From Bacteroidota bacterium (GTDB lineage Bacteria; Bacteroidota; Bacteroidia; Chitinophagales; Chitinophagaceae): a stretch of DNA of 36,786 nucleotides. Shown here one piece after another: positions 7,905 to 27,136 of the stretch (position 1 is its first letter; the number at the start of each line of letters is the position of its first letter). Below the pieces are notes generated by a model. It was given only the letters and a program-made list of their open reading frames with translations. It did not search any database and was not told where the DNA came from. A program made the position numbers and the translations under genes. The DNA is taken from assembly GCA_013288445.1 (NCBI GenBank), contig JABDBX010000011.1, forward strand, positions 1-36,786. Direction: 5' to 3'.

Positions 7905-7907
7905 TAA

Positions 7908-8721: not shown

Positions 8722-8904
8722 ATGGTAGTTACAATAAATAGCAATGCAACCCCGGAACAAATAAAAATTGCTCTGGATAAGCTATATACCGGTAGCAAGA
8801 AAGGTACAGAAAAACAACTGGATGCTTTAAAATACAAAGGTGTCATTAAACTGAAAGAAGACCCTTTGGTCATTCAAAAACGTATGCGTGATGAATGGCA
8901 ATGA
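8722..8904 (+). CDS. Antitoxin of a PIN-domain toxin-antitoxin pair
   Basis: A 60-residue protein, MVVTINSNATPEQIKIALDKL..., whose N-terminal strand-helix (TINSNATPEQIKIALDKL) is followed by a linker and a C-terminal helix (DPLVIQKRMRDEWQ) likely to plug the toxin active site. This layout is typical of small antitoxins located before PIN/VapC toxins in Bacteroidota. The frame ends at TGA 8902-8904, overlapping the toxin gene by 14 bases if the toxin starts at 8891. The pair is expected to be autoregulated through the TAACTTTG promoter. Confidence 0.8.
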   Translation: MVVTINSNATPEQIKIALDKLYTGSKKGTEKQLDALKYKGVIKLKEDPLVIQKRMRDEWQ

Positions 8905-9268
8905 TAAATTCCTTTTGGATACAAACATTGTACTGTATTTTCTAAACGGAGACGAGGTTTTATTTGAGATCCTGGATAAGAAAACCATCTATATTTCCTT
9001 TATTACTGAAATGGAGCTATTGAGTTATGGTAAATATTCGGTACCCGAAGAAACAAAAGTAAAAGAGTTTTTAGGGGATTGTTATATTGTAGAAATGAAT
9101 GCCGCTATAAAACAACAGGCAATAAAAATCAGGAAAGCGCATAAATTAAAATTGCCTGATAGCATAATTGCCGCAACCACTATTGATTTGAATATCCCAC
9201 TGTTGACGGCTGACATTGAGTTCAATAAATTAAAATCAATGCAGATATTGCAATATAACAAGCAATAA
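8891..9268 (+). CDS. PIN-domain (VapC-like) ribonuclease toxin
   Basis: About 125 residues with the PIN acidic signature: LLDTNIVLYFLNG near the N-terminus (first Asp), EMELLSYG (Glu), LPDSIIAATTIDLNIPLLTADIEFNKL (third and fourth acids). PIN toxins are Mg-dependent endoribonucleases that cleave tRNA, rRNA or mRNA when free of antitoxin. I prefer ATG 8891; a GTG at 8888 is also possible. The overlap with the upstream antitoxin implies coupled translation. All four acidic positions appear to be present, so this module looks intact, unlike the fragments around it. Confidence 0.88.
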   Translation: MNGNDKFLLDTNIVLYFLNGDEVLFEILDKKTIYISFITEMELLSYGKYSVPEETKVKEFLGDCYIVEMNAAIKQQAIKIRKAHKLKLPDSIIAATTIDLNIPLLTADIEFNKLKSMQILQYNKQ

Positions 9269-9769
9269 TCCGAATACCCCAATAAATATTTCGTCTTGGG
9301 GCGCGTCTATTCCCCAGCTATCTTTGTGCAGGGAAATGAAAGGAGTAGTGAAAACAACCACAAAGGACACGAAGTTGAACCACAAAGGACACAACCCTGA
9401 GCTTTGTGGTAGGGTCACAAATAGGGTCACCCTAAAAATCAAGTAGCCTGCAAAACCCTTTACCAGCATATCATACCGCAGAGCCAGCAATATGAGTTAT
9501 CCACAATATTTTTTTTGAGTGGGGTGTCGGAAGGTGAAAAAACGGGACATTGCCAGGACATCCCCCTATCCCCCTTCGCCGATGCACAAAACCTGCGCGC
9601 AAGGGGGAATGCACACGAATATGCTGTCAACTTCATCGTCCCATATGCTTTTTTCGTTAAGTTAATGATTGCCGGTTAATCCGGGGATATTGAGTCATTG
9701 AGCAATTAAGTCATTGAGCAATTAATTGCAGTTATATTTCGCTAATTTTGCACCCGCTAATCACACACC
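9269..9769. other. Intergenic region before ftsY
   Basis: Five hundred bases with no convincing gene. It contains two 'accacaaaggacac' repeats with a partial inverted arm (about 9354-9416), one perfect DnaA-box-like nonamer TTATCCACA (9497-9505) next to an eight-T run, a small palindrome CCGGTTAATCCGG (9673-9685), and two exact 16-bp tandem units GTCATTGAGCAATTAA (9694-9709, 9710-9725) directly upstream of the ftsY promoter. Confidence 0.6.
9743..9750 (+). promoter_or_regulatory. -7 element TAATTTTG of ftsY
   Basis: An exact TAnnTTTG match, 19 bases upstream of the ftsY ATG. Confidence 0.6.
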
Positions 9770-10747
9770 ATGGGCTTATTCGATAAACTGTTTAAACGCA
9801 ATAAAGATCAGGAAGAACAAAAGCAGGCTTTAGACGAGGGCTTGAAGAAAACCAAGGAGGGCTTTTTCTCCAAGATCAGCAAGGCTATTGCTGGCAAGGA
9901 CAAGGTGGACGAAGAGGTGCTTGATGAGGTAGAAAACGCCCTTGTAAGCGCCGATGTGGGCGTGGAGACTACCGTGGCCATTATAGACCGTATAGAGAAG
10001 CGCGTGGCCCGTGACAAATATGTAGGCACGTCAGAACTCAATAAGATATTGCAGGAGGAGATAATGAGTATGCTCACTGCGGCACCCTCTAATGAGTTTG
10101 CTACATTTGATGTGCCTGCCGGTAAGAAGCCTTATGTAATACTTGTAGTAGGCGTAAATGGTGTGGGTAAGACTACTACTATAGGCAAGCTGGCATATAA
10201 TTTTAAGAAAAATGGCAAGCAGGTTCTGCTGGGCGCAGCAGATACTTTCCGTGCTGCTGCGGTGGACCAACTGACCATATGGAGCGAACGTGTGGATGTG
10301 CCAATAGTGAAAAAAGAAATGGGTAGCGATCCCAGTTCGGTGGCGTTTGATACGGTGGTAGCGGGCATAGCCAAAGGATCGGACGTGGTGATAATAGACA
10401 CCGCAGGCCGACTGCATAACAAGGCTTACCTGATGAACGAGCTGGAAAAGATACACCGGGTAATAAAAAAGAAGATGCCTGATGCGCCACATGAGGTGCT
10501 GCTGGTGCTTGACGGCAGCACAGGCCAGAACGCACTGGAGCAGGCAAAGCATTTCACCGCATCAACAAATGTCACTGCCATAGCCATTACCAAGCTCGAT
10601 GGCACAGCGAAGGGCGGGGTAGTGCTGGCCATAGCCAACCAGTTCAAAATACCCGTGAAATACATAGGTGTGGGTGAAAAACTGGAGGATCTCCAGATAT
10701 TTAACAAGGAAGAGTTTGTGGATACGTTGTTTAGTTTGAACCCCTGA
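9770..10747 (+). CDS. ftsY: Signal recognition particle receptor FtsY
   Basis: This is the SRP-receptor GTPase that docks ribosome-SRP complexes at the membrane for co-translational insertion. It has 325 residues: a short charged N-terminus (MGLFDKLFKRNKDQ) that could contact the membrane, the helical N domain (20-110), then the G domain with P-loop GVNGVGKTTTIGKLA near 127, AADTFRAAAVDQL, DTAGRLHNKAYLM, TKLDGTAKGG and the closing GVGEKLEDLQIFNKEEF. It lacks the long acidic A domain of enterobacterial FtsY, as is usual in Bacteroidota. It is a single gene with its own promoter. A 113-bp tandem array begins at the base after the stop codon. Confidence 0.97.
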   Translation: MGLFDKLFKRNKDQEEQKQALDEGLKKTKEGFFSKISKAIAGKDKVDEEVLDEVENALVSADVGVETTVAIIDRIEKRVARDKYVGTSELNKILQEEIMSMLTAAPSNEFATFDVPAGKKPYVILVVGVNGVGKTTTIGKLAYNFKKNGKQVLLGAADTFRAAAVDQLTIWSERVDVPIVKKEMGSDPSSVAFDTVVAGIAKGSDVVIIDTAGRLHNKAYLMNELEKIHRVIKKKMPDAPHEVLLVLDGSTGQNALEQAKHFTASTNVTAIAITKLDGTAKGGVVLAIANQFKIPVKYIGVGEKLEDLQIFNKEEFVDTLFSLNP

Positions 10748-11868: not shown

Positions 11869-12556
11869 AGGTGAGTTTTAGCATCTTCATTAGTTCCACC
11901 ACACCCATGGTAGCGGGCATTTCAATTGGCACTACGTTCTTGTACTTGCTCACGGGTGGTATGCTCTTGTCTATCACATACTTTGTCACTTTTTCCCGCA
12001 CATAGTCAACCAGGCCGGCGGCAGGATATACTGCCAGCGATGTGCCAATAAGCACAAAAACATCTGCGTCATAAAGTATGGGTATGGCCTGCTCTATCAT
12101 CGGCACTGGCTCCTCAAACCATACTATGTGCGGCCTGTACTGCCCGCCATCTGCGGCCTTGTCGCCCAGCTTTATGTCTTTCTTTATGGTGTATGATTTA
12201 TGTTCGTTTTTCTCGCTCCTCATTTTCAGTATTTCGCCATGCAGGTGCAGCACTTTTTTTGAGCCAGCGCGCTCGTGCAGGTCGTCCACATTCTGGGTAA
12301 TGATGTGTACATCAAAGTGCGCTTCCAGGTCGGCAAGCGCTTTGTGGGCTGCATTGGGCGCGGCAGCAAGCACATCCCTGCGTCGCATATTGTAAAAATC
12401 GAGCACCATTTGCGGGTCTTTGCGCCAGCCGCGTGGAGTGGCCACATCTTCTATGTTATAGCCTTCCCACAGCCCATCGCTATCCCTGAATGTGCGCAAG
12501 CCACTCTCGGCGCTTATCCCTGCACCTGTGAGTACTACGAGTTTTTGTTTTTGCAT
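11867..12556 (-). CDS. cobB: SIR2-family NAD-dependent protein deacylase, zinc-less
   Basis: A 229-residue sirtuin that removes acetyl/acyl groups from lysines using NAD+. It has the Rossmann motif GAGISAESGLRTFRD (residues 11-25), VEDVATP-like IEDVATP, TQNVDDLHERAGS, the catalytic HLHGE, and GTSLAVYPAAGLVDYV. The segment between HGE and GTSL has no cysteines, so the usual structural zinc knuckle (two CxxC pairs) is missing. This also occurs in other Bacteroidota CobB-like proteins as far as I know. The start codon lies inside the end of the upstream antitoxin-like gene (22-base overlap), so the two are probably co-transcribed. The last codons border a palindromic repeat. Confidence 0.9.
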   Translation of the reverse strand: MQKQKLVVLTGAGISAESGLRTFRDSDGLWEGYNIEDVATPRGWRKDPQMVLDFYNMRRRDVLAAAPNAAHKALADLEAHFDVHIITQNVDDLHERAGSKKVLHLHGEILKMRSEKNEHKSYTIKKDIKLGDKAADGGQYRPHIVWFEEPVPMIEQAIPILYDADVFVLIGTSLAVYPAAGLVDYVREKVTKYVIDKSIPPVSKYKNVVPIEMPATMGVVELMKMLKLT

Positions 12557-12720
12557 AAGTCAGATTTGCTATTGCCTGTAATAATATCTTTGGCTTCTTC
12601 CCAAGAGGATGTTTTACTTTCGCCACTTAGTCTTTTTTTTCTGCGTTCTTCAAATTGCGCGAGATCAGCATTGGTAAAAGTAAATTCATTATTGTCAGTG
12701 TCGCGTTCTTTTGCTGCCAT
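12535..12720 (-). CDS. Antitoxin-like small protein, orphan
   Basis: A 61-residue protein, MAAKERDTDNNEFTFTNADL..., with the helix LAQFEERRKKRLSGESKTSSWEEAKDIITG. This EExRxxRLSGxSKTxxWEExKxxIxG pattern is typical of small Bacteroidota antitoxins located directly before RelE/HigB-like toxins. Here the next gene is a sirtuin, overlapping by 22 bases, and no toxin is present. It could be an orphan that was left behind, or it could have been recruited as a regulator of the sirtuin. The upstream region up to 12834 is AT-rich and contains the divergent promoters for this gene and the small gene on the other strand. Confidence 0.7.
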   Translation of the reverse strand: MAAKERDTDNNEFTFTNADLAQFEERRKKRLSGESKTSSWEEAKDIITGNSKSDLCKNKNS

Positions 12721-12834
12721 TTTGAAGTATGTTTATAGGTCCCAAACAATTATTTGTTTCATCTATTACAAAAATAGAATGGTATGACTTAAAAGAAGTA
12801 TAAATTACGAACAATTTTACAAAACACAAAAAAC

Positions 12835-12978
12835 ATGGGTAATAAAAAGGAACTTAACAAAAGGAAACCTCCCGTTATCCAAATAGGTAAGTCTCTTGAA
12901 AAATACAAGAATCTGCCTCTATTCCAGGATAAAGTGGATAAAGCAAATGAAAATGCTCTGAACGATTGGCTTGCCTGA
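12835..12978 (+). CDS. Possible 47-residue protein
   Basis: A short frame from ATG 12835 to TGA 12976-12978: MGNKKELNKRKPPVIQIGKS, then a helix-like LEKYKNLPLFQDKVDKANENALNDWLA. The composition (Lys/Asn/Leu-rich, ordered helix end) looks protein-like and its codon use matches the AT-rich neighbours. No family is recognised and no clear -7 element is seen, so it may be a chance frame. It converges with the membrane-protein gene that ends at 13022. Confidence 0.45.
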   Translation: MGNKKELNKRKPPVIQIGKSLEKYKNLPLFQDKVDKANENALNDWLA

Positions 12979-13021
12979 ACCAAGATAGAGACACTCAAAG
13001 TTATTGCATCTTTTTCTGGCT

Positions 13022-13546
13022 CTACCATAACGAATGATAGAAGACGATGGTTCTATTGTCTTTGAAGAAAAGGAGGTAGCTGCCCGTCGCTTTCTTCGTG
13101 GTTTCGCGATGGACGAAAAGGACCTCATCCTTTTTATAATGCCTCATTACTTTGTTATAAGAGTCGAAGTCATCTATTGAGTCAATTTCGAAATTGGCGA
13201 CAAACTTTGTTTTTAAATCTGAAAAGTCTTTCTGTTCAACTTCTATTGCGCAACATGCAAGGTAGTGGCCATGAATATCAGGATATGTAGCGTCTTTTCT
13301 TAGTATAGACGCATGATTGGGAAAGGGTCTGCCAAGATCGGTTTCAAAGTCCTCTTTGTAAAAACTATCTGAAGGATAAATGGCTGTGTATATCCCGTAC
13401 AACATCACCAGCAACAGAGAAATAATTATAGCATTAGCGGATTTCTTGAACCCTTTTTTATAAAGAGATTTCATGCCTTTTATGAACAGAATTAGTATCG
13501 CAAGCAATATTGCAAGAGCAACAAAAACTATTGATAAAAATCCCAT
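13022..13546 (-). CDS. Hypothetical membrane-anchored protein
   Basis: A 174-residue protein starting MGFLSIVFVALAILLAILIL (first membrane segment), followed by a basic loop (KGMKSLYKKGFKKSA) and a second membrane segment (IIISLLLVMLYGIYTAIY). The remaining ~120 residues are soluble and probably periplasmic or cytosolic alpha/beta, with HGHYLACCAIEVEQKDF, FEIDSIDDFDSY and VLFVHRETTKKATGSYLLFF. It is AT-rich and isolated. I do not recognise the family. Confidence 0.7.
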   Translation of the reverse strand: MGFLSIVFVALAILLAILILFIKGMKSLYKKGFKKSANAIIISLLLVMLYGIYTAIYPSDSFYKEDFETDLGRPFPNHASILRKDATYPDIHGHYLACCAIEVEQKDFSDLKTKFVANFEIDSIDDFDSYNKVMRHYKKDEVLFVHRETTKKATGSYLLFFKDNRTIVFYHSLW

Positions 13547-13618
13547 CAGAAACTAAACTTTACAAGTAGCGAATTGGAAATCTTGTGCCTTGATTTAGCT
13601 TCGTGCCATGGTTCAACA

Positions 13619-13648
13619 TGTCATGGTTCGGCGTGGCTCACCATGACA
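13619..13648. repeat. REP-like palindrome TGTCATGGT...ACCATGACA
   Basis: A 9-bp perfect inverted repeat with a 12-base loop (TCGGCGTGGCTC). A partial echo (GCCATGGTTCAACATG) is immediately to the left. It lies just past the stop of the threonine dehydrogenase gene and could act as its terminator hairpin, although no T-run follows. Confidence 0.7.
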
Positions 13649-13703
13649 GAATATCTATTTGACATTGTGGGAGACAGCAGGTACTTTTCCTTGTCACAAC
13701 CAC

Positions 13704-14666
13704 CTACACAGTTTCCATCATCTTCTCCTTCAAATGCATAAGCATATCAGCCGTCATTTTGTCTAAGTCGAATTCGTTTTTCCAGCCCCAGTGGTTGCGT
13801 GCTGCGGTATCATCAATGCTTTTTGGCCAGCCGTCTGCTATGGCCTGGCGGAAGTCGGGGTTGTAGTCTATGGTGAAGTCGGGGATGTGCTTTTGGATGG
13901 ATGCTGCTATTTCTTTTGGCGAGAAACTCATAGCTGCGAGGTTGTAGGCCATGCGTGTTTTCATTTGCTCTGCCGGTGCTTCCATTAGCTCTATGGTGCC
14001 GCGTATGGCATCGTCCATATACATCATAGGGAGGTAGGTGTTTTCAGACAGGAAGCTGGTGTATTTCTTGTTCTTTAAGGCTTCGTGGTATATCTCCACT
14101 GCATAATCGGTGGTGCCGCCGCCCGGTTCAGATTTCCAGCTTATGAGGCCGGGATAGCGCAGGCTGCGCACATCGAGGCCCCAGCGCTGGTTGTAGTATT
14201 GGCACCATAGCTCGCCGGCATACTTGCTGATGCCATATACCGTTCGGGGTTCTATTACGGTTTGCTGCGGCGTTTGCTCCGTAGGCGTTGTTGGGCCAAA
14301 AACGGCTATGGAACTTGGCCAGTATATTTTTGTTAGTTTCTCCTGCACTCCAAGGTCAAGTACATGCATCAGGCTCTGCATATTTATTTCCCATGCTTTG
14401 TGCGGCGCTTTTTCGCCCGTAGCAGAAAGCAGCGCAGCCAGCAGGTATATCTGGGTTATGCCTTCCTGCTTCACCAGTTCGTGGGTGGCTTTGGCGTCCA
14501 TGGCATTAAGTATGGCGTATGGGCCATTATCCTTCAGCAATGGGTGGGCTTCCTTTATATCAGAGGCTACGACATTGTCCGTACCGTACAGTTTGCGTAA
14601 AGCAAGTGTAAGTTCTACACCTATCTGGCCACCAGCGCCTATAATGAGAATTTTTTCCTGTTTCAT
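13704..14666 (-). CDS. L-threonine 3-dehydrogenase, SDR type
   Basis: A 320-residue extended short-chain dehydrogenase that matches the NAD-dependent threonine dehydrogenases related to UDP-glucose epimerases, which oxidise L-threonine to 2-amino-3-ketobutyrate in threonine catabolism. It has the Rossmann motif IIGAGGQIG (8-16), LLAALLSATGE, SSIAVFGP, the catalytic YGISKYAGE (YxxxK) and the substrate loop LRYPGLISWKSEPGGGTTDYAVEI, typical of this branch. A glycine C-acetyltransferase is not adjacent. Immediately upstream of the ATG lies an 80-base block of 'tagtagatagtcgttagt' repeats, which displaces any normal leader. A more general NAD-dependent epimerase role is the alternative. Confidence 0.88.
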   Translation of the reverse strand: MKQEKILIIGAGGQIGVELTLALRKLYGTDNVVASDIKEAHPLLKDNGPYAILNAMDAKATHELVKQEGITQIYLLAALLSATGEKAPHKAWEINMQSLMHVLDLGVQEKLTKIYWPSSIAVFGPTTPTEQTPQQTVIEPRTVYGISKYAGELWCQYYNQRWGLDVRSLRYPGLISWKSEPGGGTTDYAVEIYHEALKNKKYTSFLSENTYLPMMYMDDAIRGTIELMEAPAEQMKTRMAYNLAAMSFSPKEIAASIQKHIPDFTIDYNPDFRQAIADGWPKSIDDTAARNHWGWKNEFDLDKMTADMLMHLKEKMMETV

Positions 14667-18230: not shown

Positions 18231-18692
18231 TTAGGATAGCAACTTTTGTCTTAGCAGGAATTCGAGTTGCTCGTTGGAAAGGGTGAGTTTGCTGTTCATT
18301 TCCTTTTCGTCCATTTTCTGCTGATATACTTCAAATGCCCTGGTGATTGCCATATCCAATTCTTCTTCGTTCCAGGGTTTGGTGAGGTAATGGAATATTT
18401 TACCTTTGTTGATGGCGTCAATGACGGCGTTCATATCGGCATAGCCTGTAAGGAGTATTCGTATCGGATCGGGAAATTCATCGAGTATTGATTCCAGGAA
18501 CTCTACCCCGGTCATCTGGGGCATACGCTGATCTGTAATAATTATGTTTATTTGTTTGTTTTTCAGTATTTTAATGGCTTCTTCACCACTAATAGCAGTA
18601 AAAATGTTATATTTTATGCGAAAAACAGCTTTAAATGAGACAAGGTTGTTCATTTCATCGTCAACATATAAGATGGATATTTTTTCACTCAT
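18231..18692 (-). CDS. Response regulator, receiver domain with helical tail
   Basis: A 153-residue protein. The receiver domain (1-125) has the acidic pair D11/D12, phospho-acceptor D54 in ITDQRMPQMTG, the switch Thr in ILLTGYAD, and the Lys in LTKPW. The tail (126-153) is a charged helix. There is no DNA-binding output domain, so it must act through a partner or as a phosphate sink. It resembles the receiver at the front of the hybrid protein at 24126 (shared VDDExNNL, DQRMPxxTG, GYADxxxVIxAxNxGxIFxYxxKPW). It is divergent from the operon starting at 18885, with a 192-base AT-rich gap that holds no other gene. This suggests it belongs to the same signalling unit. Confidence 0.92.
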   Translation of the reverse strand: MSEKISILYVDDEMNNLVSFKAVFRIKYNIFTAISGEEAIKILKNKQINIIITDQRMPQMTGVEFLESILDEFPDPIRILLTGYADMNAVIDAINKGKIFHYLTKPWNEEELDMAITRAFEVYQQKMDEKEMNSKLTLSNEQLEFLLRQKLLS

Positions 18693-18884
18693 AAAAGGTA
18701 ATTCGCATGAAATTTAAGAAATTTATTGGAAGTAGCCTACTACTATTTAACATTGTAAAAATAAATTCTTATTATTACACTACAATTTGAAAAAGGGAAC
18801 TTTTTAAATATTTTATTTTAATAGCTAACTTTTGTTTAATTTTATAAGCGCATTTTTTATTTTGCCTATTTTAATTTTATTAGT

Positions 18885-19604
18885 TTGGACCAAATAAAAT
18901 TAGTTATCAAGGCGTTTAGGGCAGTTGACGATCTGGAAACATGCCAAATGTACGTTGAGGGCCACTCAAAGGTACTAAAGATTTATGGTATTGCTATGAT
19001 CACCTCTGCTAAAGCGGTATGGTTCAACGACCCCGATACATACGTGATTTTGGTGGAATCGGAAGATGGGGAAAAAATATACGGGGGAGCGAGAATACAG
19101 GTTGCCAAAGGAAAATTTCCCTTACCTATAGAGGATGCATTGACTAAGTTTGACCCAAATATTCATGGGTTTGTGAAGAACCATTCCGCAGATGGTACCG
19201 GTGAATTATGCGGGTTGTGGAATTCGAGGGAAGTTGCGGGTCTGGGTATCGGCAGTATTTACCTGACGAGGGTAGGCGTGGCCATTGCGTCGCAGTTAAA
19301 ACTACAAACGCTTTATGCATTGTGCGCCCCGGCAACTGTGAAAAATTCTAACCGGGTAGGTTTTCTCGTAGATGAGCGCCTGGGTGACAAGGGCACTTTT
19401 TTCTATCCGAAGGAGGGGCTTGTGGCAACTTCAGTATTGCTTAGTGATGTGGCAGAGTTGTCGATGGCTGACCCTGATGAGCGGGATAAGATTTTTGAAT
19501 TGAGGGAAAACCCGGTACAGCAGAAAATTGAAATTTCTCCGAGGGGAGATGGCTTAGAGGTTAATTATAATCTGATTATCAAATCAGCGCATATATCTTT
19601 GTAA
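18885..19604 (+). CDS. GNAT / LuxI-FeeM-like acyltransferase family protein
   Basis: A 239-residue protein starting at TTG 18885 (no ATG is available before residue 22). A basic N-terminal stretch is followed by IYGGARIQ and PLPIEDAL, which resemble the 'xGTxRL...lPLp' part of autoinducer synthase/FeeM-type N-acyltransferases. Then come ELCGLWNSREVAGLGIGSIYLTRVGVAIASQLKLQTLYALC, an acyl-donor-binding loop and helix pattern, and NRVGFLVDERLGDKGTFFYP, the matching last strands. I infer that it transfers an acyl group from acyl-CoA or acyl-carrier protein to an amino group. It is the first gene of a six-gene cluster, 30 bases before the ThiF-nitroreductase gene. Substrates are unknown. Confidence is moderate for the fold and low for LuxI/FeeM activity. 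Confidence 0.65.
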   Translation: MDQIKLVIKAFRAVDDLETCQMYVEGHSKVLKIYGIAMITSAKAVWFNDPDTYVILVESEDGEKIYGGARIQVAKGKFPLPIEDALTKFDPNIHGFVKNHSADGTGELCGLWNSREVAGLGIGSIYLTRVGVAIASQLKLQTLYALCAPATVKNSNRVGFLVDERLGDKGTFFYPKEGLVATSVLLSDVAELSMADPDERDKIFELRENPVQQKIEISPRGDGLEVNYNLIIKSAHISL

Positions 19605-19634
19605 AGTTGCAAGGAAAAAAGAAGTGAAAATTTA

Positions 19635-21956
19635 ATGGATATGGGTCCGAAGTATCACCAGTTGCTGCAAAATAGTATAAACACGAAGGAGCAATACCGA
19701 CCTGATTTTTTTCGGCTTGCAAATGAAGAAAGCAAAAAGAGTTTTAATGACCTTTTAGAATCCGGATCCGTTTTCTGTATCAATGATGAACTATACGACC
19801 AGTTAAGAGAACTCAATAAGAGTCGAAATCCTACGCGGAAGCTAACGACGGAAGACTACTCACACCTTATAGCGCAACATTTAAACGGGCAAGACATAAA
19901 GGAATACGGTGTTTGGGTTTTTTATCCCTGGTCTGGCCGTATGGTGCATATGCTTGACGAGGCCGAATTTATAGAATTGAGGACTGCGGCAAACAGGAAT
20001 AAGATAACTATTGCGGAGCGGGAAGTGTTGGCTACAAAGAAGGTGGGTGTAATTGGCTTGTCTGTTGGGCAGTCGGTGTCGGTGACGCTGGCGCTGGAGC
20101 GGGGATGCGGAGAGTTGAGGTTGGCTGATTTTGACACTTTGGAATTGAATAACCTGAACAGGATCAGAACGGGCGTGCACAACCTGGGTTTATTAAAGGC
20201 TTATGCCGTAGCCCGGGAGATCGCCGAAATAGATCCCTTTTTTAAGACTGTGTGTTATACGGAGGGGCTTACAGACGAGAACATTGATGACTTCTTTATG
20301 AAGGGCGGGAAACTGGATGCGGTGATAGACGAGTGCGACAGTGTAAATGTGAAAATACAATGCCGGATAAAGGCCAAAGAACTGCATGTGCCGGTGATAA
20401 TGGAAGCCAGCGACCGCGGGACCCTTGATGTGGAACGCTTTGACCTGGACCCGCAACGGCCAATAATACATGGCTGGCTGGAGGGCCTGACCATAGACCT
20501 CAATGTATTAAAAAACCTGAAAACAACGGAAGAGAAGCTGCCGTATATGCTGCCGATCTCGGGCCTCGAAACGTTATCGAACCGCATGAAGGCTTCGATG
20601 GTGGAGATAGAGAACACGCTCACTACCTGGCCACAGTTGGCAAGTGCCGTGGCGCTTGGTGGCGCAGTGGCAGCAGATACGTGCAGGCGGATATTCCTGG
20701 ACCAATACACCGATTCGGGAAGGTATTTTATAGACCTTGAAAAGATAATCCCCGATACAAGGGTGAGGGAGGAGTTTGTGCTACCCTATGCTGCCGATCC
20801 ATTGACAGAAGAAGAAATGAGCAGTCTTGCTAACGATGCGTTGCGAAATTTGCCGGCGAATGTTACTGAAATTGGTACGAACGAAATTACTGAAATTGTT
20901 GGCGCTGCAATACAAGCGCCATCTGCCGGTAATAACCAACCATGGAAATGGCTCTATAAGCAAGGGACATTATTTCTCTTTCATGATAAAGTGCGTTCTA
21001 TTTCTTTTGGTGATTTCGAAAATATAGCATCAGATATCGCTTTAGGGGCTGCCATAGAAAACCTGGAATTGCAGTCCAGTAAAATGAATGTAGGCACATC
21101 CGTCCATTATTTTCCGATACCTGGAAATACTAAGTTGATAGCTGCAATTCAATTCACCGCAACTGTTAATTCTTCGTCATTGTATAATACGGCAGAACTT
21201 GGCAACTATATATTTTTACGGGAAACCAACCGGAACTTCGGGCCGAGGGTTAGGATTGATGAGGATAAAATAAATTTATTGAGAGAAGCCGTTGCATCCG
21301 TGCCGGGTGCGGGGCTTTTTATCCTGGATAAGGAAGATGAGCTGGATGAGATAGCCGATATTTTCGGTTCAGCCGAACGCTTACGGCTGCTACACCCGGA
21401 GGGGCATATAGAATTTTACCAGAAAGAACTGCGCTGGACACCCGAGCAGAGCCAGGCAAGCAAGGACGGTATAGACCTGGCTACAATTGAGTTATTAGAA
21501 TCGGAAATGGTGGGGTTGCGTTTGGTAAAGGACATGGAAGTAGCCAAACTGCTGAGTACCTGGCGGGCGGGCAAGGGGCTGGAGCGGATACCAAGGAAGG
21601 CAGTTAAGTCGGCCTCAGTGGTCGGGCTGGTGACAATGCCAGATTTCTCACCGATGAGTTTTCTCACCGGGGGGCGTGCCGTGCAGCGCATGTGGCTGCA
21701 GGCCGCTAAATGCGATGTGTCGCTGCAACCTATGGTGGCTGCATTGCTGCACTTTGCGCGCCTTGTGCATGGCGACGGGGTAGGGATGCCGGCATTAATG
21801 AAGGAGGAATTCACAGAGTTATACCCAAGGTTTGTAAAACTTTTTCCGGGTGCAATTGGCAAAGAACCTGTATTTTTATTCCGGTTAAGCATTGCCAATA
21901 AACCCTCGGTAAAATCCTACAGGATACCGGTTGATAAGATGCTTACATTTGCCTGA
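19635..21956 (+). CDS. ThiF-type (E1-like) domain fused to nitroreductase, Rv1355c/MoeY-like
   Basis: A 773-residue two-enzyme fusion. Residues about 1-125 are an unclassified N-terminal region. Residues about 135-370 are an E1/ThiF/MoeB-like adenylating domain: KKVGVIGLSVGQSVSVTLALERG (nucleotide loop), LADFDTLELNNLNR and VIDECDSVNVKI, but without the zinc CxxC pairs. Residues about 410-770 are an FMN-dependent nitroreductase-like domain: IVGAAIQAPSAGNNQPWKW, ELGNYIFLRETNRNFG and a C-terminal GxxKEPVFLFRLS. The same fusion is known as the Rv1355c family, named after a mycobacterial protein annotated MoeY. Its reaction is unknown. The order suggests carboxylate adenylation and a flavin redox step on a small molecule. 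The next gene begins 7 bases after the stop. Confidence 0.88.
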   Translation: MDMGPKYHQLLQNSINTKEQYRPDFFRLANEESKKSFNDLLESGSVFCINDELYDQLRELNKSRNPTRKLTTEDYSHLIAQHLNGQDIKEYGVWVFYPWSGRMVHMLDEAEFIELRTAANRNKITIAEREVLATKKVGVIGLSVGQSVSVTLALERGCGELRLADFDTLELNNLNRIRTGVHNLGLLKAYAVAREIAEIDPFFKTVCYTEGLTDENIDDFFMKGGKLDAVIDECDSVNVKIQCRIKAKELHVPVIMEASDRGTLDVERFDLDPQRPIIHGWLEGLTIDLNVLKNLKTTEEKLPYMLPISGLETLSNRMKASMVEIENTLTTWPQLASAVALGGAVAADTCRRIFLDQYTDSGRYFIDLEKIIPDTRVREEFVLPYAADPLTEEEMSSLANDALRNLPANVTEIGTNEITEIVGAAIQAPSAGNNQPWKWLYKQGTLFLFHDKVRSISFGDFENIASDIALGAAIENLELQSSKMNVGTSVHYFPIPGNTKLIAAIQFTATVNSSSLYNTAELGNYIFLRETNRNFGPRVRIDEDKINLLREAVASVPGAGLFILDKEDELDEIADIFGSAERLRLLHPEGHIEFYQKELRWTPEQSQASKDGIDLATIELLESEMVGLRLVKDMEVAKLLSTWRAGKGLERIPRKAVKSASVVGLVTMPDFSPMSFLTGGRAVQRMWLQAAKCDVSLQPMVAALLHFARLVHGDGVGMPALMKEEFTELYPRFVKLFPGAIGKEPVFLFRLSIANKPSVKSYRIPVDKMLTFA

Positions 21957-21963
21957 TAATACT

Positions 21964-24117
21964 ATGATCAGAAACAGAGTAATAAGTTATTTTTTAGTCT
22001 TGTTTTCTTTAATATCCGTCCATGGATACGGGCAGGATACTGTGGTTTATAGCAACCCTTCACGAAATGTAATAATAGGGGATAAGGTTGCGATACTGGA
22101 AGATAAGCATAATGACCTGAGCTTTGAACAGGTATTGGCATCGAAGGATTTTGTCAATAAACATCAGCAAGTGCCTAACCTGGAGGTAAGCGCCTCATCA
22201 TTCTGGGTAAAGATCTGCATTTCGAATCATACTACAGCCCCAACGTTAGCTTTACAATTAGAATATCCTACGATAGATACCGTTACTTTTTTCAGCCCAA
22301 ATGCGGGAGGAATTTATAATAAGCTTGTTACGGGGGAGTTTGTGCCATTTTATGCACGGCAGTACAAGCACCAGAGCTACATCTTTAACCTGGCCATAGC
22401 TCCATCTGAAACGAAGGTTTTTTACATGAAGGTAATTGCATCTGAGCAAATGCAATTGCCTTTAAACATTGGTACAAGCCAAAGCATATCAGACGCCATA
22501 TATACCAATGACCTGATCTTTGGCCTGTATGCGGGCATCATAATCGTGATGTTGTTGTACAACCTGTTCATCTATTTTACGGTTCGTGACAAGACATACC
22601 TGCATTATGTACTGTATATACTTTTTGTGGGTCTTGTGCAAGCCTGCCTGCAGGGATATGCTCCGCGGTTTTTTTATCCGGATTCTTTTTTTCTTGCAAA
22701 TGTAATGATCGTATGGGTGCCCGCGCTGTCAGGTATTTTTGGAATTTCTTTTACTAAAGTATTTCTTTCCGTTAAGCAATACACACCAACGCTTTATAAG
22801 ATACTTACCGGGATACAGGTAGTATATGTAATAATTATTTGCTTTAGTTTTTTTGGGGATTACCGTACCTGTGCAAATGTATTGCTTGGGGTAGTAGGAA
22901 CACTTGCAATCATTGTTTACCTGACGTCTGTAAGAATAGCGCTGAAAGGGTACCGGCCTGCAAAGTTTTTCGTGATAGCGTGGACCCTTTTTATAGCGAG
23001 TGTGGTGATCTTTGTATTGAGAAATTTCAATGTGCTGCCATATAACCACTTTACGTATTATGCGCTGCAGGGTGGTTCGGCTTGTGAGATCGTTTTACTG
23101 TCTATAGCGCTGGCCGATAAAATTAATATCTTCCGCAAGGAGAAGGAAGAGTCGCAGGCCCAGACTGTGCAGGCATTGCAGGAAAATGAACGAATAGTGC
23201 GGGAGCAAAACGTAATATTGGAAGGCAAGGTGACGGAGCGGACAATAGAATTAAAAGCCGCGAACAATGATCTGCACCAGGCGATGGTGGAACTAAAGGA
23301 AGCTGAATCGCAATTGGTGGAGTCAGAGAAAATGGCTTCACTCGGCCAGTTGACGGCTGGTATAGCACACGAAATAAATAACCCGATCAACTTTGTAACA
23401 TCGAACGTAAAACCACTGAACCGGGATGTAAGGATACTTCTGGATATTGTGGATGAAATGGAGCAGATCATTGAACTGGATATGCCGCTGGCAGACAAAA
23501 AGAAAAAGGTAGAACAGTATAAAGAAGACATTGATTTCGATTATCTGAAAATAGAAATAGACCAGTTGCTGAGCGGTATAGGCGATGGTGCGTCGAGAAC
23601 GGCTGAGATAGTGAAGGGCCTGCGCATATTCTCGCGGCTTGATGAGGATGACCTGAAAAAGGCAGACATTAATGAAGGGCTGGAATCAACCCTGGTTATT
23701 ACAAATAACCTTTTGGGTACGAAGGTGAAATTAGAAAAACACTATGCCAACCTGCCCGTGATAGAATGCTACCCTGGCAAGCTAAACCAGGTATTTTTGA
23801 ATATTATCTCAAATGCTATTTACGCTATAAAGAAAAAGTATTTAGAAAATGATGGCGGATTGCTTACTATTACGACTACATTTGATGAAACCAGCATTTA
23901 CGTTAAGATAGCGGACAATGGAACAGGCATGGATGAAAATACCAAGAAACGACTTTTTGAACCGTTCTTTACAACGAAGGACGTGGGAGAGGGTACAGGA
24001 TTGGGACTGTCCATAGCATATAATACGATAAATAAACACAATGGGCAGATCCAGGTAAATTCAGAGGTTGGCGTGGGGACGGAGTTCATTCTTATATTAC
24101 CTTTAATCCAGAAATAG
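21964..24117 (+). CDS. 7TMR-DISM sensor histidine kinase
   Basis: 717 residues from ATG 21964, giving a clean signal peptide (MIRNRVISYFLVLFSLISVHGYGQ); a TTG at 21931 is disfavoured. Domains: a periplasmic DISMED2-type beta-sandwich (about 25-160, with ASSFWVKICISNHT and LQLEYPTIDTVTFFSPN); seven membrane helices (about 175-390, beginning NDLIFGLYAGIIIVMLLYNLFIYFTVRDKTYLHYVLY); a coiled coil (395-460); the phosphoacceptor region GQLTAGIAHEINNPINFV; and an HATPase with NxxxNAIYA (N box), ADNGTGMDE (G1) and GEGTGLGLSIAY (G2). The DISMED2 domain normally binds small, often carbohydrate-like ligands. It is encoded immediately after the ThiF-nitroreductase, so it is the obvious candidate to sense the operon's product. 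Confidence 0.94.
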   Translation: MIRNRVISYFLVLFSLISVHGYGQDTVVYSNPSRNVIIGDKVAILEDKHNDLSFEQVLASKDFVNKHQQVPNLEVSASSFWVKICISNHTTAPTLALQLEYPTIDTVTFFSPNAGGIYNKLVTGEFVPFYARQYKHQSYIFNLAIAPSETKVFYMKVIASEQMQLPLNIGTSQSISDAIYTNDLIFGLYAGIIIVMLLYNLFIYFTVRDKTYLHYVLYILFVGLVQACLQGYAPRFFYPDSFFLANVMIVWVPALSGIFGISFTKVFLSVKQYTPTLYKILTGIQVVYVIIICFSFFGDYRTCANVLLGVVGTLAIIVYLTSVRIALKGYRPAKFFVIAWTLFIASVVIFVLRNFNVLPYNHFTYYALQGGSACEIVLLSIALADKINIFRKEKEESQAQTVQALQENERIVREQNVILEGKVTERTIELKAANNDLHQAMVELKEAESQLVESEKMASLGQLTAGIAHEINNPINFVTSNVKPLNRDVRILLDIVDEMEQIIELDMPLADKKKKVEQYKEDIDFDYLKIEIDQLLSGIGDGASRTAEIVKGLRIFSRLDEDDLKKADINEGLESTLVITNNLLGTKVKLEKHYANLPVIECYPGKLNQVFLNIISNAIYAIKKKYLENDGGLLTITTTFDETSIYVKIADNGTGMDENTKKRLFEPFFTTKDVGEGTGLGLSIAYNTINKHNGQIQVNSEVGVGTEFILILPLIQK

Positions 24118-24125
24118 CGAAAGCA

Positions 24126-25232
24126 TTGAATACACCGGACAAAATAAAAGTCTTATATATAGACGATGAACAAAACAATCTGAACGGGTTTAAGGCCACG
24201 TTCAGGTTCGACTATACAGTTTATATAGCGGCGAATACTGCGCAGGCGTATGAGCATTTAAAAGCGCATCCGGATATAAGCGTGGTGTTGTGCGATCAAC
24301 GGATGCCGGATAAAACCGGTGCACAGTTTTATTCGGAGATGCGGGAAACATACCCTGAACCGGTGCGGATGTTGATAACGGGCTATGCGGATATAGAATC
24401 GGTGATAGAGGCGGTGAACATGGGCCACATATTCAGGTACATAAAAAAGCCCTGGACAGATACAGACATAAAGTCGGCAATAGAGGAGGCCAATAAATTT
24501 TATATTACAAACTCGCTGCTAACTGCCAAGAATAAGGAGTTGCAATCGGCTTATGACGAGCTTGGGAAATTTGCTTATAGCGTTACCCACGATCTTAGGG
24601 GGCCGTTATTGAGCGTTATAGGCGCCCTTGACCTGGCAAAGACAATGGACAGTTTGCCAGACCTGCGGGAAATTCTCGGGATGATGGATGTAGCTGTTAA
24701 AAAATTAGATGAATTCATAAAAAATACGCACGAATACTACAACCTTAAAAGAGGCAGATTGGTATTTGAACAACTGGATTTTAATAACATTGTTAATGAT
24801 ACTGCCGCACTTTTCAGGATAGCCGGGAGAATGGATAACGTACGTTTTACTTCCCGTGTTATTCAGAATGAGCCGTTTATATCTGATGAAATATCTATTA
24901 AAATAGTGCTGAATAATCTGTTTTCAAATGCATTTAAGTTTCAGCGAAAAACAGCGACTGACAAATTTGTGGACATAGACGTTGAAGTTGCCAATAATAC
25001 TGCGATAATTTTAGTTAAAGATAATGGTATAGGCATACAGGAAAACCACATAAATAATATCTTTACAATGTTCTACAGGGCAACCTCTGAGGCAGCGGGC
25101 TCAGGTTTTGGATTGTACAATGTAAAGGATGCATTGAATAAACTGAACGGAACAATAGAAGTATCGTCAGTATTTAACGAAGGGACTAATTTTAAAGTAA
25201 CAATACCTGGAAAGGCAAATGGTGCAAACTAA
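24126..25232 (+). CDS. Receiver-histidine kinase hybrid protein
   Basis: 368 residues from TTG 24126 (no nearby ATG), eight bases after the preceding stop. An N-terminal receiver domain (1-125: D13/D14, phospho-acceptor D57 in LCDQRMPDKTG, LITGYAD, KKPW) is joined by a helical linker to a histidine kinase core: H155 in FAYSVTHDLRGPLLSVIGAL, NNLFSNAFKFQ (N box), VKDNGIGIQENHINNIF (G1/F) and GSGFGLYNVKDA (G2). There is no membrane segment, so it is cytosolic. It is expected to take phosphate from the 7TMR-DISM kinase and then autophosphorylate or relay it to the single-domain receiver encoded next. The 14-base overlap with that gene supports co-production. Confidence 0.93.
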   Translation: MNTPDKIKVLYIDDEQNNLNGFKATFRFDYTVYIAANTAQAYEHLKAHPDISVVLCDQRMPDKTGAQFYSEMRETYPEPVRMLITGYADIESVIEAVNMGHIFRYIKKPWTDTDIKSAIEEANKFYITNSLLTAKNKELQSAYDELGKFAYSVTHDLRGPLLSVIGALDLAKTMDSLPDLREILGMMDVAVKKLDEFIKNTHEYYNLKRGRLVFEQLDFNNIVNDTAALFRIAGRMDNVRFTSRVIQNEPFISDEISIKIVLNNLFSNAFKFQRKTATDKFVDIDVEVANNTAIILVKDNGIGIQENHINNIFTMFYRATSEAAGSGFGLYNVKDALNKLNGTIEVSSVFNEGTNFKVTIPGKANGAN

Positions 25233-25617
25233 GAAACTACATTTTATAGTAATTGACGATAGCAAACTTGATTGTTTTATCGCCGAGAAGATCATTAAGA
25301 ATACCGGCAAGAGCGAGTCGATAAGGTCTTTTCTGCAAGCGAAAGAAGCGCTTGAGTTTGTGGCAACATCCCATCCGGATGAACAATCACATACCATTAT
25401 ATTAGTGGACATACAGATGCCGGTAATGAATGGATTTGAGTTCGTAGAGGCATTTGAGGCGCTGCCTACCCACATTACAGCGCATTATACCATTTACGTT
25501 ATATCTTCCTCTATTAATGAGAATGACCTTAACCGGGTACACAACTATTCTTCTGTAAAGCAGTTTTTGAATAAGCCGCTGAACAGCAACAGCCTTACCA
25601 TTCTATTGCAGCAATGA
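25219..25617 (+). CDS. Single-domain response regulator
   Basis: A 132-residue stand-alone receiver: D13/D14 in FIVIDDSKLD, phospho-acceptor D64 in LVDIQMPVMNG, the switch region VISSSINEND and the Lys in FLNKPLN. The long alpha2-beta3 insertion (SHPDEQSHT) is common in Bacteroidota single-domain regulators paired with hybrid kinases. It has no output domain. It overlaps the upstream kinase gene by 14 bases and the downstream lyase gene by 4 (ATGA), so it sits in the middle of a tightly coupled translation unit. It is probably the last known step of the phosphorelay; its target is not in the window. Confidence 0.93.
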   Translation: MVQTKKLHFIVIDDSKLDCFIAEKIIKNTGKSESIRSFLQAKEALEFVATSHPDEQSHTIILVDIQMPVMNGFEFVEAFEALPTHITAHYTIYVISSSINENDLNRVHNYSSVKQFLNKPLNSNSLTILLQQ

Positions 25618-26471
25618 TGACCCTTATTGAATGTCCGCGCGATGCTATGCAGGGTTGGGAAACCTTTATCCCGACCATAGAAAAGGCGAATTATCTGAAT
25701 GTACTCCTTAAAGTTGGTTTTGATGTACTCGACTTTGGTTCTTTTGTTTCGGCAAAGGCAATACCGCAACTGGCTGATACGAAAGATGTGATCCCATTGC
25801 TGGACATGAGTAATACACAGACCAAGCTGCTGGCTATTATTGCTAACACAAGGGGGGCGCAGGATGCTGTGCAGTTTGACGAGATCAGCTACCTAGGATT
25901 CCCTTTCTCCATATCAGAGACATTCCAGTTGCGGAATACCAATAAGACCATTGCGCAATCGCTGGAACAGGTGGAGGAAATGCAAAACCTTTGTGTGCAG
26001 CGGGGAAAGGAACTTGTGATCTATATATCTATGGGCTTTGGCAATCCGTATGGCGACGATTATAGTGCCGATGTGGCCATAAAATGGGTGGGACGGCTTG
26101 CGCAACTGGGTATAAAGACGATAGCCATGTCTGATACCGTAGGCGTAGCAGAGCCAGCCAATATAACCCACATATTCAAACACCTTATTCCTGAATTCAA
26201 GGACGTGCACATTGGTGCGCATTTCCATTCTACGCCCAATAAATGGGAAGAAAAGATAAAGGCCGCATACGACGCGGGGTGCCTGCGGTACGATAGCGCT
26301 ATGAAAGGGATAGGAGGCTGCCCAATGGCGGAAGATGTACTGGTGGGCAACATCGCGACCGAAAATATTGTTGGCTGGTGCGGTCAGCAAAATATTCCGC
26401 TGAGCTTAAACAAAGAGGCGTTTGCCGAGGCGTGGGAAATGGCCGGGCGGATTTTTGTGGGGCATGAATAG
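25614..26471 (+). CDS. Hydroxymethylglutaryl-CoA lyase-like enzyme
   Basis: A 285-residue HMGL/DRE-TIM metallolyase. HMG-CoA lyase cleaves HMG-CoA to acetoacetate and acetyl-CoA in leucine breakdown. Visible features are LIECPRDAMQGW (the position of the family's RD motif), FVSAKAIPQLAD, the barrel strands, the metal-binding HIGAHFHSTP (family HxH) and the signature loop GIGGCPMAED with the catalytic Cys. Length is normal (about 285-300). Start ATG 25614 overlaps the stop of the receiver gene (ATGA); a second ATG follows at 25617. It may simply be read through from the signalling operon, or it may be part of it. Related homocitrate-type aldolases are a less likely alternative. Confidence 0.9.
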   Translation: MMTLIECPRDAMQGWETFIPTIEKANYLNVLLKVGFDVLDFGSFVSAKAIPQLADTKDVIPLLDMSNTQTKLLAIIANTRGAQDAVQFDEISYLGFPFSISETFQLRNTNKTIAQSLEQVEEMQNLCVQRGKELVIYISMGFGNPYGDDYSADVAIKWVGRLAQLGIKTIAMSDTVGVAEPANITHIFKHLIPEFKDVHIGAHFHSTPNKWEEKIKAAYDAGCLRYDSAMKGIGGCPMAEDVLVGNIATENIVGWCGQQNIPLSLNKEAFAEAWEMAGRIFVGHE

Positions 26472-26607: not shown

Positions 26608-26850
26608 ATGAACTATGATGTTGTAAAGGAGAAACTGCATGATTTAATTGACCATGCGGAACAGGATAAAGTAATGGCGATCTATACTTTATTAAGCAAT
26701 GAAGCGGGGTCGGGAGTTGCTTATGACGAAGCAACTCTAAATATGCTAGAGGCGACAAAAGAAAATATGCTTTCTGGTAAAGAGAAAACCTACACTTTAG
26801 AGCAAACAATTGATAACATCCGTAAGCATCGAAGCAGTAATGGTGTATGA
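26608..26850 (+). CDS. Antitoxin of a ParE/RelE-type pair
   Basis: An 80-residue protein. The N-terminal helices MNYDVVKEKLHDLIDHAEQDKVMAIYTLL form the dimer/DNA-binding part common to this Bacteroidota antitoxin family, and the C-terminal half (LNMLEATKENMLSGKEKTYTLEQTIDNIRKHRSS) contains the typical 'SGKxKxYTLEEx' toxin-wrapping segment. It overlaps the toxin gene by 11 bases. It is distantly related to the truncated antitoxin at 8570. The operon is expected to be autorepressed. The promoter sits almost on the start codon. Confidence 0.85.
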   Translation: MNYDVVKEKLHDLIDHAEQDKVMAIYTLLSNEAGSGVAYDEATLNMLEATKENMLSGKEKTYTLEQTIDNIRKHRSSNGV

Positions 26851-27136
26851 TTTAATTTTTAGTCAACGTTCGCAGGAGGACACAAATACAGCTATTGATT
26901 ATTATGATCAGATAAATCCGTCACTTGGCGAACGCTTTTTTATTGAGTTATTGGAAGTCTATCAAAAGCTATCTTCAGCGCCTCAATATTATTCATTTAT
27001 TTCGTCAGTTCGCATCAGTAAAATAAGGGATGTAAAACTTCCTTCATTCCCATATGTTGTAATTTATGAAGTGCAGGAAAATAAGGTCTATGTAATTGCA
27101 ATAATGAACAGCCACAAAAGGCCGTTGTTTGGTTGA
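26840..27136 (+). CDS. ParE/RelE-superfamily toxin
   Basis: 98 residues from ATG 26840; a TTG at 26810 would add ten residues but lies deep inside the antitoxin gene. It has the fold order of ParE: strand VYDLIFSQRSQEDTNTAIDYYDQINPSLGERFFIELLEVYQKLSSAP (helical hairpin), then IRDVKLPSFPYVVIYEVQENKVYVIAIMNSHKRP with the C-terminal beta-sheet and HxxRxP. ParE toxins poison gyrase; RelE relatives cleave mRNA, and the sequence alone does not decide which. The module looks intact. Confidence 0.85.
   Translation: MVYDLIFSQRSQEDTNTAIDYYDQINPSLGERFFIELLEVYQKLSSAPQYYSFISSVRISKIRDVKLPSFPYVVIYEVQENKVYVIAIMNSHKRPLFG

Follow-up and report, generated by a model that had tools for sequence, protein, structure and literature searches.

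The locus described here raises the question of whether the enzymes encoded by a bacterial gene cluster make a small molecule that is perceived by the sensor kinase encoded beside them. The window analysed is a stretch of 36,786 nucleotides (contig JABDBX010000011.1 of assembly GCA_013288445.1, positions 1 to 36,786 of the forward strand) from a member of the Chitinophagaceae (Bacteroidota), whose genome is represented by a 3.05 Mb assembly of 215 contigs, 65% complete. An earlier note on this DNA had described a cluster of six co-directional genes on the plus strand, with gaps of 30, 7 and 8 bases followed by overlaps of 14 and 4 bases, and had proposed that the first two genes make a compound which the product of the third perceives. 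The layout was borne out, as was the domain content by Pfam, gene 1 having no family and owing its identity to its predicted fold. The cluster is nevertheless larger than these six genes, as it also includes a divergent receiver gene that had been missed (upREC, 18231-18692, minus strand). We consider it probable that the cluster makes and senses its own signal in the manner of quorum sensing, with the sensor reading the product of the pathway. Its parts, named below as TrzA-like (gene 1), TrzS (gene 2), 7TMR-DISM kinase (gene 3) and upREC, are as follows.

18231-18692 (-): upREC, a single-domain receiver of 153 amino acids without an output domain (NCBIfam receiver matches; Pfam on a homologue)
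18693-18884 (no strand): intergenic region between upREC and the operon, presumed divergent promoter region (open reading frame map only)
18885-19604 (+): gene 1, putative TrzA-like N-acyl amino-acid synthase of the GNAT type, 239 amino acids, FeeM/LuxI-like by predicted fold
19635-21956 (+): gene 2 (TrzS), whole open reading frame (ThiF and Nitroreductase Pfam domains; NCBIfam Rv1355c family)
19635-20789 (+): ThiF-like cyclase domain of TrzS, amino acids 1-385 (PF00899, 56.9 bits)
20847-21953 (+): flavin-dependent oxidase domain of TrzS (nitroreductase superfamily), amino acids 405-773 (PF00881, 26.0 bits; NF047509, 118 bits)
21964-24117 (+): gene 3 (7TMR-DISM kinase), whole open reading frame (ATG start; a TTG start at 21931 is also open)
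21964-23133 (+): sensor half of gene 3, amino acids 1-390, with an N-terminal helix, a DISMED2 jelly roll and seven transmembrane (7TM) helices (PF07696, 103 bits; PF07695, 165 bits)
23134-24117 (+): linker and kinase half of gene 3 (HisKA/HATPase_c), phospho-acceptor His469 (PF02518, 78 bits)
24126-25232 (+): gene 4, receiver-histidine kinase (REC-HisKA-HATPase), D57 and H155 (Response_reg, 60.8 bits; HATPase_c, 76.6 bits)
25219-25617 (+): gene 5, single receiver, D64 (PF00072 Response_reg, 45.6 bits)
25614-26471 (+): gene 6, HMG-CoA-lyase-like enzyme (PF00682 HMGL-like, 60.4 bits)

The co-occurrence seen in the window proved near-universal: in the Bacteroidota loci examined, trzS and the acyltransferase gene adjoin a DISM kinase gene almost without exception. 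Counts, which rest on our own open reading frame calls and profile thresholds, were made in three sets: 80 named trzS loci (those ranking closest to the window among 538, so that counts from this set are biased towards relatives), 40 genomes of relatives (own genome included; 23 neighbourhoods fetched), and a phylum sample of 395 genomes not chosen by closeness to the window. The relatives and named sets overlap through six duplicate pairs; seven such pairs were cut to one member each for trees and distances and retained in the linkage counts. Full flanks (at least 2.5 kb upstream and at least 5 kb downstream of trzS) were available for 62 of the 80 named loci, 15 of the 23 from relatives and 9 of the 10 from the phylum sample. 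The named loci cover Pedobacter, Mucilaginibacter, Parapedobacter, Daejeonella, Dyadobacter, Arachidicoccus and others, and those with full flanks contain TrzA in 61 cases, the DISM kinase in 61, the receiver-kinase in 58, upREC in 60 (beside the trz genes and on the other strand) and the third receiver in 51. TrzA, DISM kinase and receiver-kinase are present in all 15 full-flank neighbourhoods of the relatives, the others stopping early at contig ends. A homologue of gene 1 was found in 24 of the 40 genomes of the relatives set (own included) and in 20 of the 24 others of the same genus.

The sole full-flank locus without a DISM kinase among 86 (L116) belongs to a metagenome-assembled genome named Blastocatellia. 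When loci at contig ends are included, the kinase is present in 74/80 named loci, 21/23 from relatives and 10/10 from the phylum sample. It is also absent from L086 and L126, which lie on contigs of 7-8 kb: L126 has a weak TrzA and its contig continues for just 1.2 kb downstream, and L086 has 5.1 kb downstream without DISM or TrzA. In L044, trzS is found at a contig end, three genes from trzA, and the kinase gene adjoins trzA. Searched from the side of the acyltransferase, 13 of the 395 phylum-sample genomes matched its profile, and in all 13 (own included) a DISM kinase was adjacent or one gene off. The 7TM family is scarce (0-5 members per genome in the 23 genomes searched), so chance adjacency would be about 0.002 per gene, a rough figure. 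The order of the two trz genes varies (of the 77 named loci with both, 25 have trzA-trzS and 52 have trzS-trzA), and both stay by the kinase gene. No TrzA-profile match was found beside the 12 DISM loci of a contrast set from genomes without TrzA (L148-L159). None of the open-access papers listed in our literature searches names a link of trz-type enzymes to a 7TMR-DISM kinase in its title or abstract opening.

The genes of the cluster fall into two modules, whose border runs through gene 3: TrzA, TrzS and the sensor half on the one hand, and the kinase half, the receiver-kinase and upREC on the other. Tree-based distances were calculated for TrzA, ThiF, ectodomain, 7TM, kinase half, receiver-kinase and upREC in 76 loci. 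The kinase half, receiver-kinase and upREC correlate mutually at r 0.85-0.91 (0.86 for upREC and the kinase half), whereas for the 7TM part r is 0.55 against ThiF and 0.23 against the kinase half of the same protein. The partial correlation of 7TM with ThiF, given kinase, receiver-kinase and upREC, is 0.51 (reached by 0 of 999 permutations), while that of 7TM with the kinase, given ThiF and TrzA, is -0.04 (reached by 783 of 999). These partials are retained in half-jackknives and after de-replication to 27 loci (0.46 and -0.09). Identity-based distances, which were also used in the close-pair and genus comparisons below, place 7TM closest to the oxidase in the 73 loci with the fusion, out of 78 that have all five proteins (r 0.58), with a partial correlation of 0.42 given ThiF, TrzA, kinase, receiver-kinase and upREC.

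Likelihood comparisons gave the same ranking. The difference in log-likelihood of the 7TM data was 587 on the oxidase tree, 848 on the ThiF tree, 1002 on the TrzA tree and 2630 on the kinase tree; for the kinase data it was 227 on the upREC tree, 293 on that of the receiver-kinase and 2273 on that of 7TM. Fifteen 7TM types (a number that depends on the cut, here 15 clusters) require 30-32 changes on the signalling trees but 19-20 on those of the oxidase, ThiF and TrzA. In the 46 loci whose 7TM and kinase have discordant nearest neighbours, TrzA sided with 7TM 19 times and with the kinase five times.

Comparison of close relatives revealed how the sensor types are switched. Within the window's genus, 16 loci have the same kinase type but fall into seven 7TM types (at the 15-cluster cut). 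Between these types the mean identity is 76% for the kinase, 73% for the receiver-kinase and 82% for the receiver, compared with 44% for TrzA, 34% for the oxidase, 41% for 7TM and 26% for the ectodomain; within one type (types being defined by 7TM) of the same genus, it is 64% for the oxidase and 83% for TrzA. Among 82 pairs alike in their signalling genes, the mean identity of the oxidase is 35% where that of 7TM is below 55%, and 73% where it is above (kinase, 79 and 87%). In a strict set of 30 pairs, the oxidase is 30% identical where 7TM is below 55% (n=7) and 78% identical otherwise (n=23), at equal kinase identity (88 and 89%).

The clearest case is the pair L031/L034, in which identity is 80-97% throughout, falling lower only in the oxidase (30%), the ectodomain (22%) and 7TM (39%). 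The borders are sharp, at about residue 365 of TrzS and about residue 385 of the kinase, and trzA, which lies between the two replaced tracts, is intact (89% identical). Outside both groups, the ectodomain and 7TM of the L031 group are closest to L083 (with L101, L094 and L087), and its oxidase is also closest to L083 (58%), tied with the same-genus L027. For the L033/L034 group, L125 is the nearest locus in each of oxidase, ectodomain, 7TM, ThiF and TrzA. In the signalling genes, both groups have their closest matches within their own genus, and L124 comes next for the kinase. The gene trzA precedes trzS in L083, L087, L094 and L101 and follows it in the L031 group, so if L083-type loci were the donor, a single contiguous exchange would not yield the L031 arrangement. 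We infer that two exchanges held together by selection are the simplest reading of this pair.

What the enzymes would make can be judged by their relatives, as the make half of the cluster is chemistry already known elsewhere (OxzAB, TyzACB and TrzAS). Gene 2 meets the NCBIfam equivalog “Rv1355c family protein” (766.9 bits, cut-off 476, residues 15-771) and shares 31-35% identity with full-length actinobacterial members; its ThiF residues G141, G145, D165, N173, R176, K188 and D235 are invariant in 17 sequences. In actinobacteria, Rv1356c/TrzA acylates L-tryptophan, and the ThiF-flavin oxidase fusion Rv1355c/TrzS converts the TrzA product to an N-acyl oxazolone by cyclisation followed by desaturation (PMC12856293). 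The earlier oxazolone pathways OxzAB and TyzACB (PMC12856293; PMC10404671) resemble TrzAS and the cluster in combining an acyltransferase with a ThiF-flavin oxidase, either fused (TrzS, OxzB) or split (TyzB, TyzC). The cluster differs from them in its kinase: the parts of the main text of PMC12856293 drawn on here mention no 7TMR-DISM kinase for actinobacterial TrzAS. The same paper remarks on the resemblance of oxazolones to cell-cell signals and on neighbouring cyclic di-GMP genes, which it reports at the M. tuberculosis Rv1355c locus. As a separate observation, a GGDEF gene (L160, 2997-3977) lies near the Rv1355c-family gene of the Rhodococcus plasmid pLP1.

Gene 1 matched nothing in Pfam or NCBIfam, and by sequence a single query of the PDB returned one row at E 0.39 and a profile query none. 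Its AlphaFold2 model, built from 24 sequences, has a pLDDT (predicted local distance difference test) of 87.8. The best Foldseek matches in the PDB were the CoA-dependent acyl-homoserine lactone synthase BjaI (2.6e-7) and the N-acyl amino-acid synthase FeeM (6.2e-7), with TMt (target TM-score) values of 0.66-0.81. In VIA, FeeM ranks first (Z 16.6, 2.7 Å, 177 residues) and is tied with ElaA-type GNATs (Z 16.1-16.5), so that the GNAT fold of the model is firm and kinship to FeeM likely. The model of the 239-residue protein thus agrees with the supposition of the earlier note: it has a GNAT fold, and its best matches include FeeM and CoA-dependent LuxI-type synthases. The protein resembles FeeM, BjaI and RpaI in predicted fold but differs from them in sequence (11-15% identity in structural alignments). 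The Rhodococcus gene neighbouring the Rv1355c-family gene scores just 20.3 bits against the gene 1 (TrzA) profile, a weak match.

According to Pfam and its model, gene 3 is a 7TMR-DISM sensor kinase with DISMED2, 7TM and histidine-kinase domains. The AlphaFold2 model of the sensor (pLDDT 89.9) contains an ectodomain matching the jelly roll of RetS (3jyb, TMt 0.82), followed by seven long helices. RetS and other 7TMR-DISM proteins share this DISMED2 and 7TM architecture; unlike them, gene 3 is tied to a biosynthetic pair and co-evolves with it. The phosphotransfer residues are fully conserved in copies picked by score and length (truncated copies left out, duplicate pairs kept): H469 of the gene 3 kinase in 102/102, D57, K108 and H155 of the receiver-kinase in 93/93, D54, T82 and K105 of upREC in 96/96, and D64 and K119 of the last single receiver (gene 5) in 81/81. 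We propose upREC as a candidate phosphotransfer partner of the kinase. The cluster had been called a complete phosphorelay, which is too strong, because a search of the cluster proteins with Pfam and NCBIfam found histidine kinases and receivers but no histidine-phosphotransfer (HPt) or output domain.

The enzyme acting between acyltransferase and sensor is variable. Among the 13 phylum-sample loci, four (own included) encode the ThiF-oxidase fusion, seven a ThiF protein without the oxidase (in L139, one of these, a contig end removes the start of the ThiF gene) and two an ICMT-like carboxyl methyltransferase of 213 residues (PF04140, 70.6 and 66.2 bits), whose gene lies between those of TrzA and the kinase and replaces ThiF. 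The latter loci, which place the acyltransferase and the methyltransferase beside the DISM kinase, are:

L146, 9703-11090: acyltransferase and ICMT-like methyltransferase genes (PF04140)
L147, 6974-8403: acyltransferase and ICMT-like methyltransferase genes (PF04140)

These kinase-linked ThiF-only and ICMT-like variants were found in Bacteroidota loci and distinguish them from TrzAS, OxzAB and TyzACB. The constant pair is therefore acyltransferase and sensor, and we infer that each of the variable tailoring enzymes would have the carboxylate of an N-acyl amino acid as its target. Three loci (L082, L104 and L106) hold just upREC, TrzS, TrzA and the kinase, which marks the minimal set. L082 has two copies of TrzA; tandem TrzA-type acyltransferase genes within one cluster were observed both there (12439-13889) and in L124.

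Three genomes of the same genus have no trzA, trzS or trz-type sensor (G011, 92% complete; G022, 85%; G024, 98%), a joint absence that speaks for product sensing. G024 retains a receiver-kinase shortened at the N-terminus, the receiver and the HMGL-like gene, and a comparable receiver-kinase remnant lies on a short contig of G022. G006 (82% complete) lacks trzA and trzS and has one trz-class kinase alone on a contig. In G003, G005 and G034, which carry trzA, no receiver-kinase match was obtained: in the first two the contig stops inside the kinase gene or directly downstream of it, and in G034 the position after the kinase is taken by a receiver.

Assembled from these parts, the following mechanism can be proposed. 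To judge from its fold and from characterised TrzA, TyzA and OxzA, TrzA would acylate an amino acid with acyl-CoA as donor; TrzS, if it acts as in actinobacteria, would adenylate the carboxylate and close the ring to give a 5-oxazolone, with desaturation by its flavin domain as the next step. The neutral acyl-oxazolone, or a close relative, may then exit the cell or partition in the membrane, where co-evolution suggests that it would be read by the jelly-roll and 7TM sensor half of the adjacent kinase. The kinase would exchange phosphate with the receiver-kinase and upREC, the partners indicated by shared history and conserved Asp and His residues. Output would pass through protein contacts or unlinked partners, since the cluster encodes no output domain. 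Specificity may have diversified as in agr and comQXPA, with synthesis genes and sensor half varying as a matched set and the kinase half and its partners conserved. The synthase-receptor linkage of a quorum-sensing two-component system is present, with putative roles of signal synthase and receptor, and synthase-receptor co-variation (pherotypes) appears as an evolutionary pattern in the sequences.

The product-sensing reading must be weighed against several observations which speak against it. The modules are not perfectly congruent, since the approximately unbiased (AU) test rejects all foreign gene trees for each of the four tested segments. The Spearman correlation of 7TM with TrzA over the 76 loci is 0.15, and the plain 7TM-TrzA correlation drops to 0.17 in the 27 de-replicated loci; that of ectodomain and oxidase is 0.32, the ectodomain distances being saturated, and the 7TM part was therefore relied on. 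In the 46 discordant loci the votes of the oxidase (12 with 7TM, nine with the kinase) and ThiF (10 versus eight) are nearly balanced. The double replacement is one event, between the group of L031, L032 and L035 and that of L033 and L034, and shows in six of the 28 closest pairs, all between those two groups. In L131/L132 the ectodomain (26%) has changed without a like change in the oxidase (65%), 7TM (77%) or kinase (84%), and may thus switch on its own. Two actinobacterial trzS plasmid copies (Rhodococcus, Mycobacterium) have no DISM profile match within 5 kb, which indicates that the enzymes can serve without such a receptor. Tryptazolone is mainly cell-associated and acyl-tryptophan is found in the supernatant (PMC12856293), so that the diffusible ligand could be the intermediate. 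DISMED2, moreover, is predicted to sense carbohydrate (PMC8846402), and solo 7TMR-DISM kinases without trz genes nearby exist in four genomes of the genus (G004, G013, G005 and G006), two of the four on contigs of 3-6 kb:

L140, 7523-9679: solo kinase
L141, 7679-9847: solo kinase
L163, 2781-4955: solo kinase
L164, 723-2876: solo kinase

In 7TM these are nearest one another (61-70%) and next to the L043/L044 type (57-62%), and three of the four genomes additionally have a trz cluster, which is of a different type. The solo kinases resemble a single lineage of orphan receptors, as would be expected if they heard the signal of others.

The carbohydrate prediction suits a different explanation, namely that the kinase is a dedicated regulator of oxazolone production, which senses an outside cue (glycan or envelope stress) and switches the pathway on. 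Its ectodomain is a jelly roll of the RetS-like kind to which that prediction applies (PMC8846402), and subinhibitory antibiotics induce oxazolones in several proteobacteria (PMC12856293). A cue sensor would have no cause, however, to share its history with the oxidase and cyclase over its own kinase, nor to be replaced jointly with the oxidase domain; the encoded receivers, moreover, lack an output domain, and direct control of the operon is not evident. We therefore hold this explanation to be unlikely. Quite improbable, in our view, is that the sensor reads the cell's own or a competitor's product for self-protection or inhibition, as with an antimicrobial and a kinase-armed immunity, an idea that overlaps with product sensing. 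Matched variation is seen in toxin-immunity loci too. N-acyl tyrosine derivatives have also been described as antimicrobial (PMC12856293), but the flanks, scanned with eight profiles of our own and a few Pfam scans only, gave no positive evidence of an immunity gene.

The block pattern itself might be an artefact of a fast sensor and oxidase beside a slow kinase and receivers, together with recombination that follows proximity, without functional matching. The ectodomain and oxidase are indeed the least conserved segments, the oxidase, TrzA and sensor are side by side in the trzS-trzA order, and same-type pairs are slightly closer in the kinase too (82 versus 76%). Physical proximity is no explanation of the blocks, however, since upREC lies on the trz side in most loci and yet tracks the kinase at the other end, and trzA was left in place between the replaced tracts of L031/L034. 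Nor does such an artefact agree with the contrast in oxidase identity among the 7 + 23 strict pairs of equal kinase identity, with the closeness of oxidase and TrzA in genus pairs of one 7TM type (64 and 83% versus 34 and 44% between types), or with the survival of the effect on de-replication to 27 loci. We regard it as very improbable. Product sensing remains our preferred reading. Neither of the outcomes that the earlier note had named as refuting its proposal was observed, namely rare adjacency to the kinase genes in related genomes or a gene 1 structure unrelated to GNAT/LuxI. The kinase linkage, the FeeM/LuxI-like fold and the co-evolution of the sensor half with the enzymes support the proposal that genes 1 and 2 make an acyl/amino-acid compound which gene 3 perceives. 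The support is only partial, because the chemistry and make-and-sense pairs are known, the phosphorelay is incomplete, upREC had been missed, the HMGL-like gene is not core, and sensing is suggested by sequence patterns.

The HMG-CoA-lyase-like gene, which had been counted as a component of the cluster, was ruled out as a core member by its sparse presence (8/62 named and 0/9 phylum-sample full-flank loci; 13/15 among the relatives), and is probably a local neighbour outside the core system. Its product falls under the NCBIfam cut-off for HMG-CoA lyase (178.5 of 246 bits). Between this gene and that for adenylosuccinate lyase, a ParE-type toxin (PF05016, 31.3 bits) is encoded at 26810-27136 (+), and a small open reading frame upstream of it (26608-26850, +) is a possible partner. 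The window contains a stretch of low G+C content (positions 6001-10000, 35-39% versus 40-51% elsewhere), and scans of it with Rfam (gathering threshold) and for tRNA genes found nothing. In L130, L131, L132 and L136, which form one family, the cluster adjoins a gene that in L131 reads as REC-PglZ (PorX-like) and in the other three was judged by position and size; L131 also has TsaE and alanine dehydrogenase genes as neighbours. A shared output module was suspected there (REC-PglZ, TsaE, alanine dehydrogenase) and is not general.

No coupled system of this kind had been known to the author of the earlier note, but make-and-sense pairs as such are known from quorum sensing. In agr of Staphylococcus the hypervariable region starts in the 3' part of agrB, spans agrD and ends in the 5' part of agrC (PMC3673130), and ComP has a variable N-terminal and a conserved cytoplasmic domain (PMC4008528). 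Both agrBDCA and comQXPA of Bacillus thus resemble the cluster in combining variable synthesis genes and a variable sensor part with a conserved kinase part (PMC3673130, PMC4008528). They differ in using peptide signals in place of the acyl amino-acid derivative predicted here, in receptor family and in phylum, and the cluster, unlike them, has two single receivers and a second kinase. Synthase-receptor pairs are also formed by LuxM/LuxN, CqsA/CqsS and RpfF/RpfC. The receptors of these systems are named in PMC8895600. As in the cluster, a small-molecule synthase is combined with a membrane histidine-kinase receptor; the cluster differs in its synthase chemistry, its 7TMR-DISM receptor and the lack of a LuxU/LuxO-like output.

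To our knowledge, few signal-receptor pairs have been characterised in Bacteroidota, and the ligands of 7TMR-DISM proteins are mostly unknown. On balance, and with only a slight preference, we lean towards the view that the clusters represent a widespread class of quorum sensing in this phylum, with acyl-oxazolones or carboxyl-capped acyl amino acids as autoinducers and 7TMR-DISM proteins as receptors, in which segment exchange would make pherotypes, the tailoring enzyme would set the dialect and solo receptors would hear a further dialect. The physiological role of N-acyl oxazolones has been called “a major unresolved question” (PMC12856293). The cluster supplies a candidate receptor, a candidate phosphotransfer partner (upREC) and natural matched and mismatched pairs, which make this question directly testable. 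If the reading is true, it would add a new autoinducer class and a new receptor class to two-component quorum sensing, and would provide a ligand for the 7TMR-DISM receptor family.

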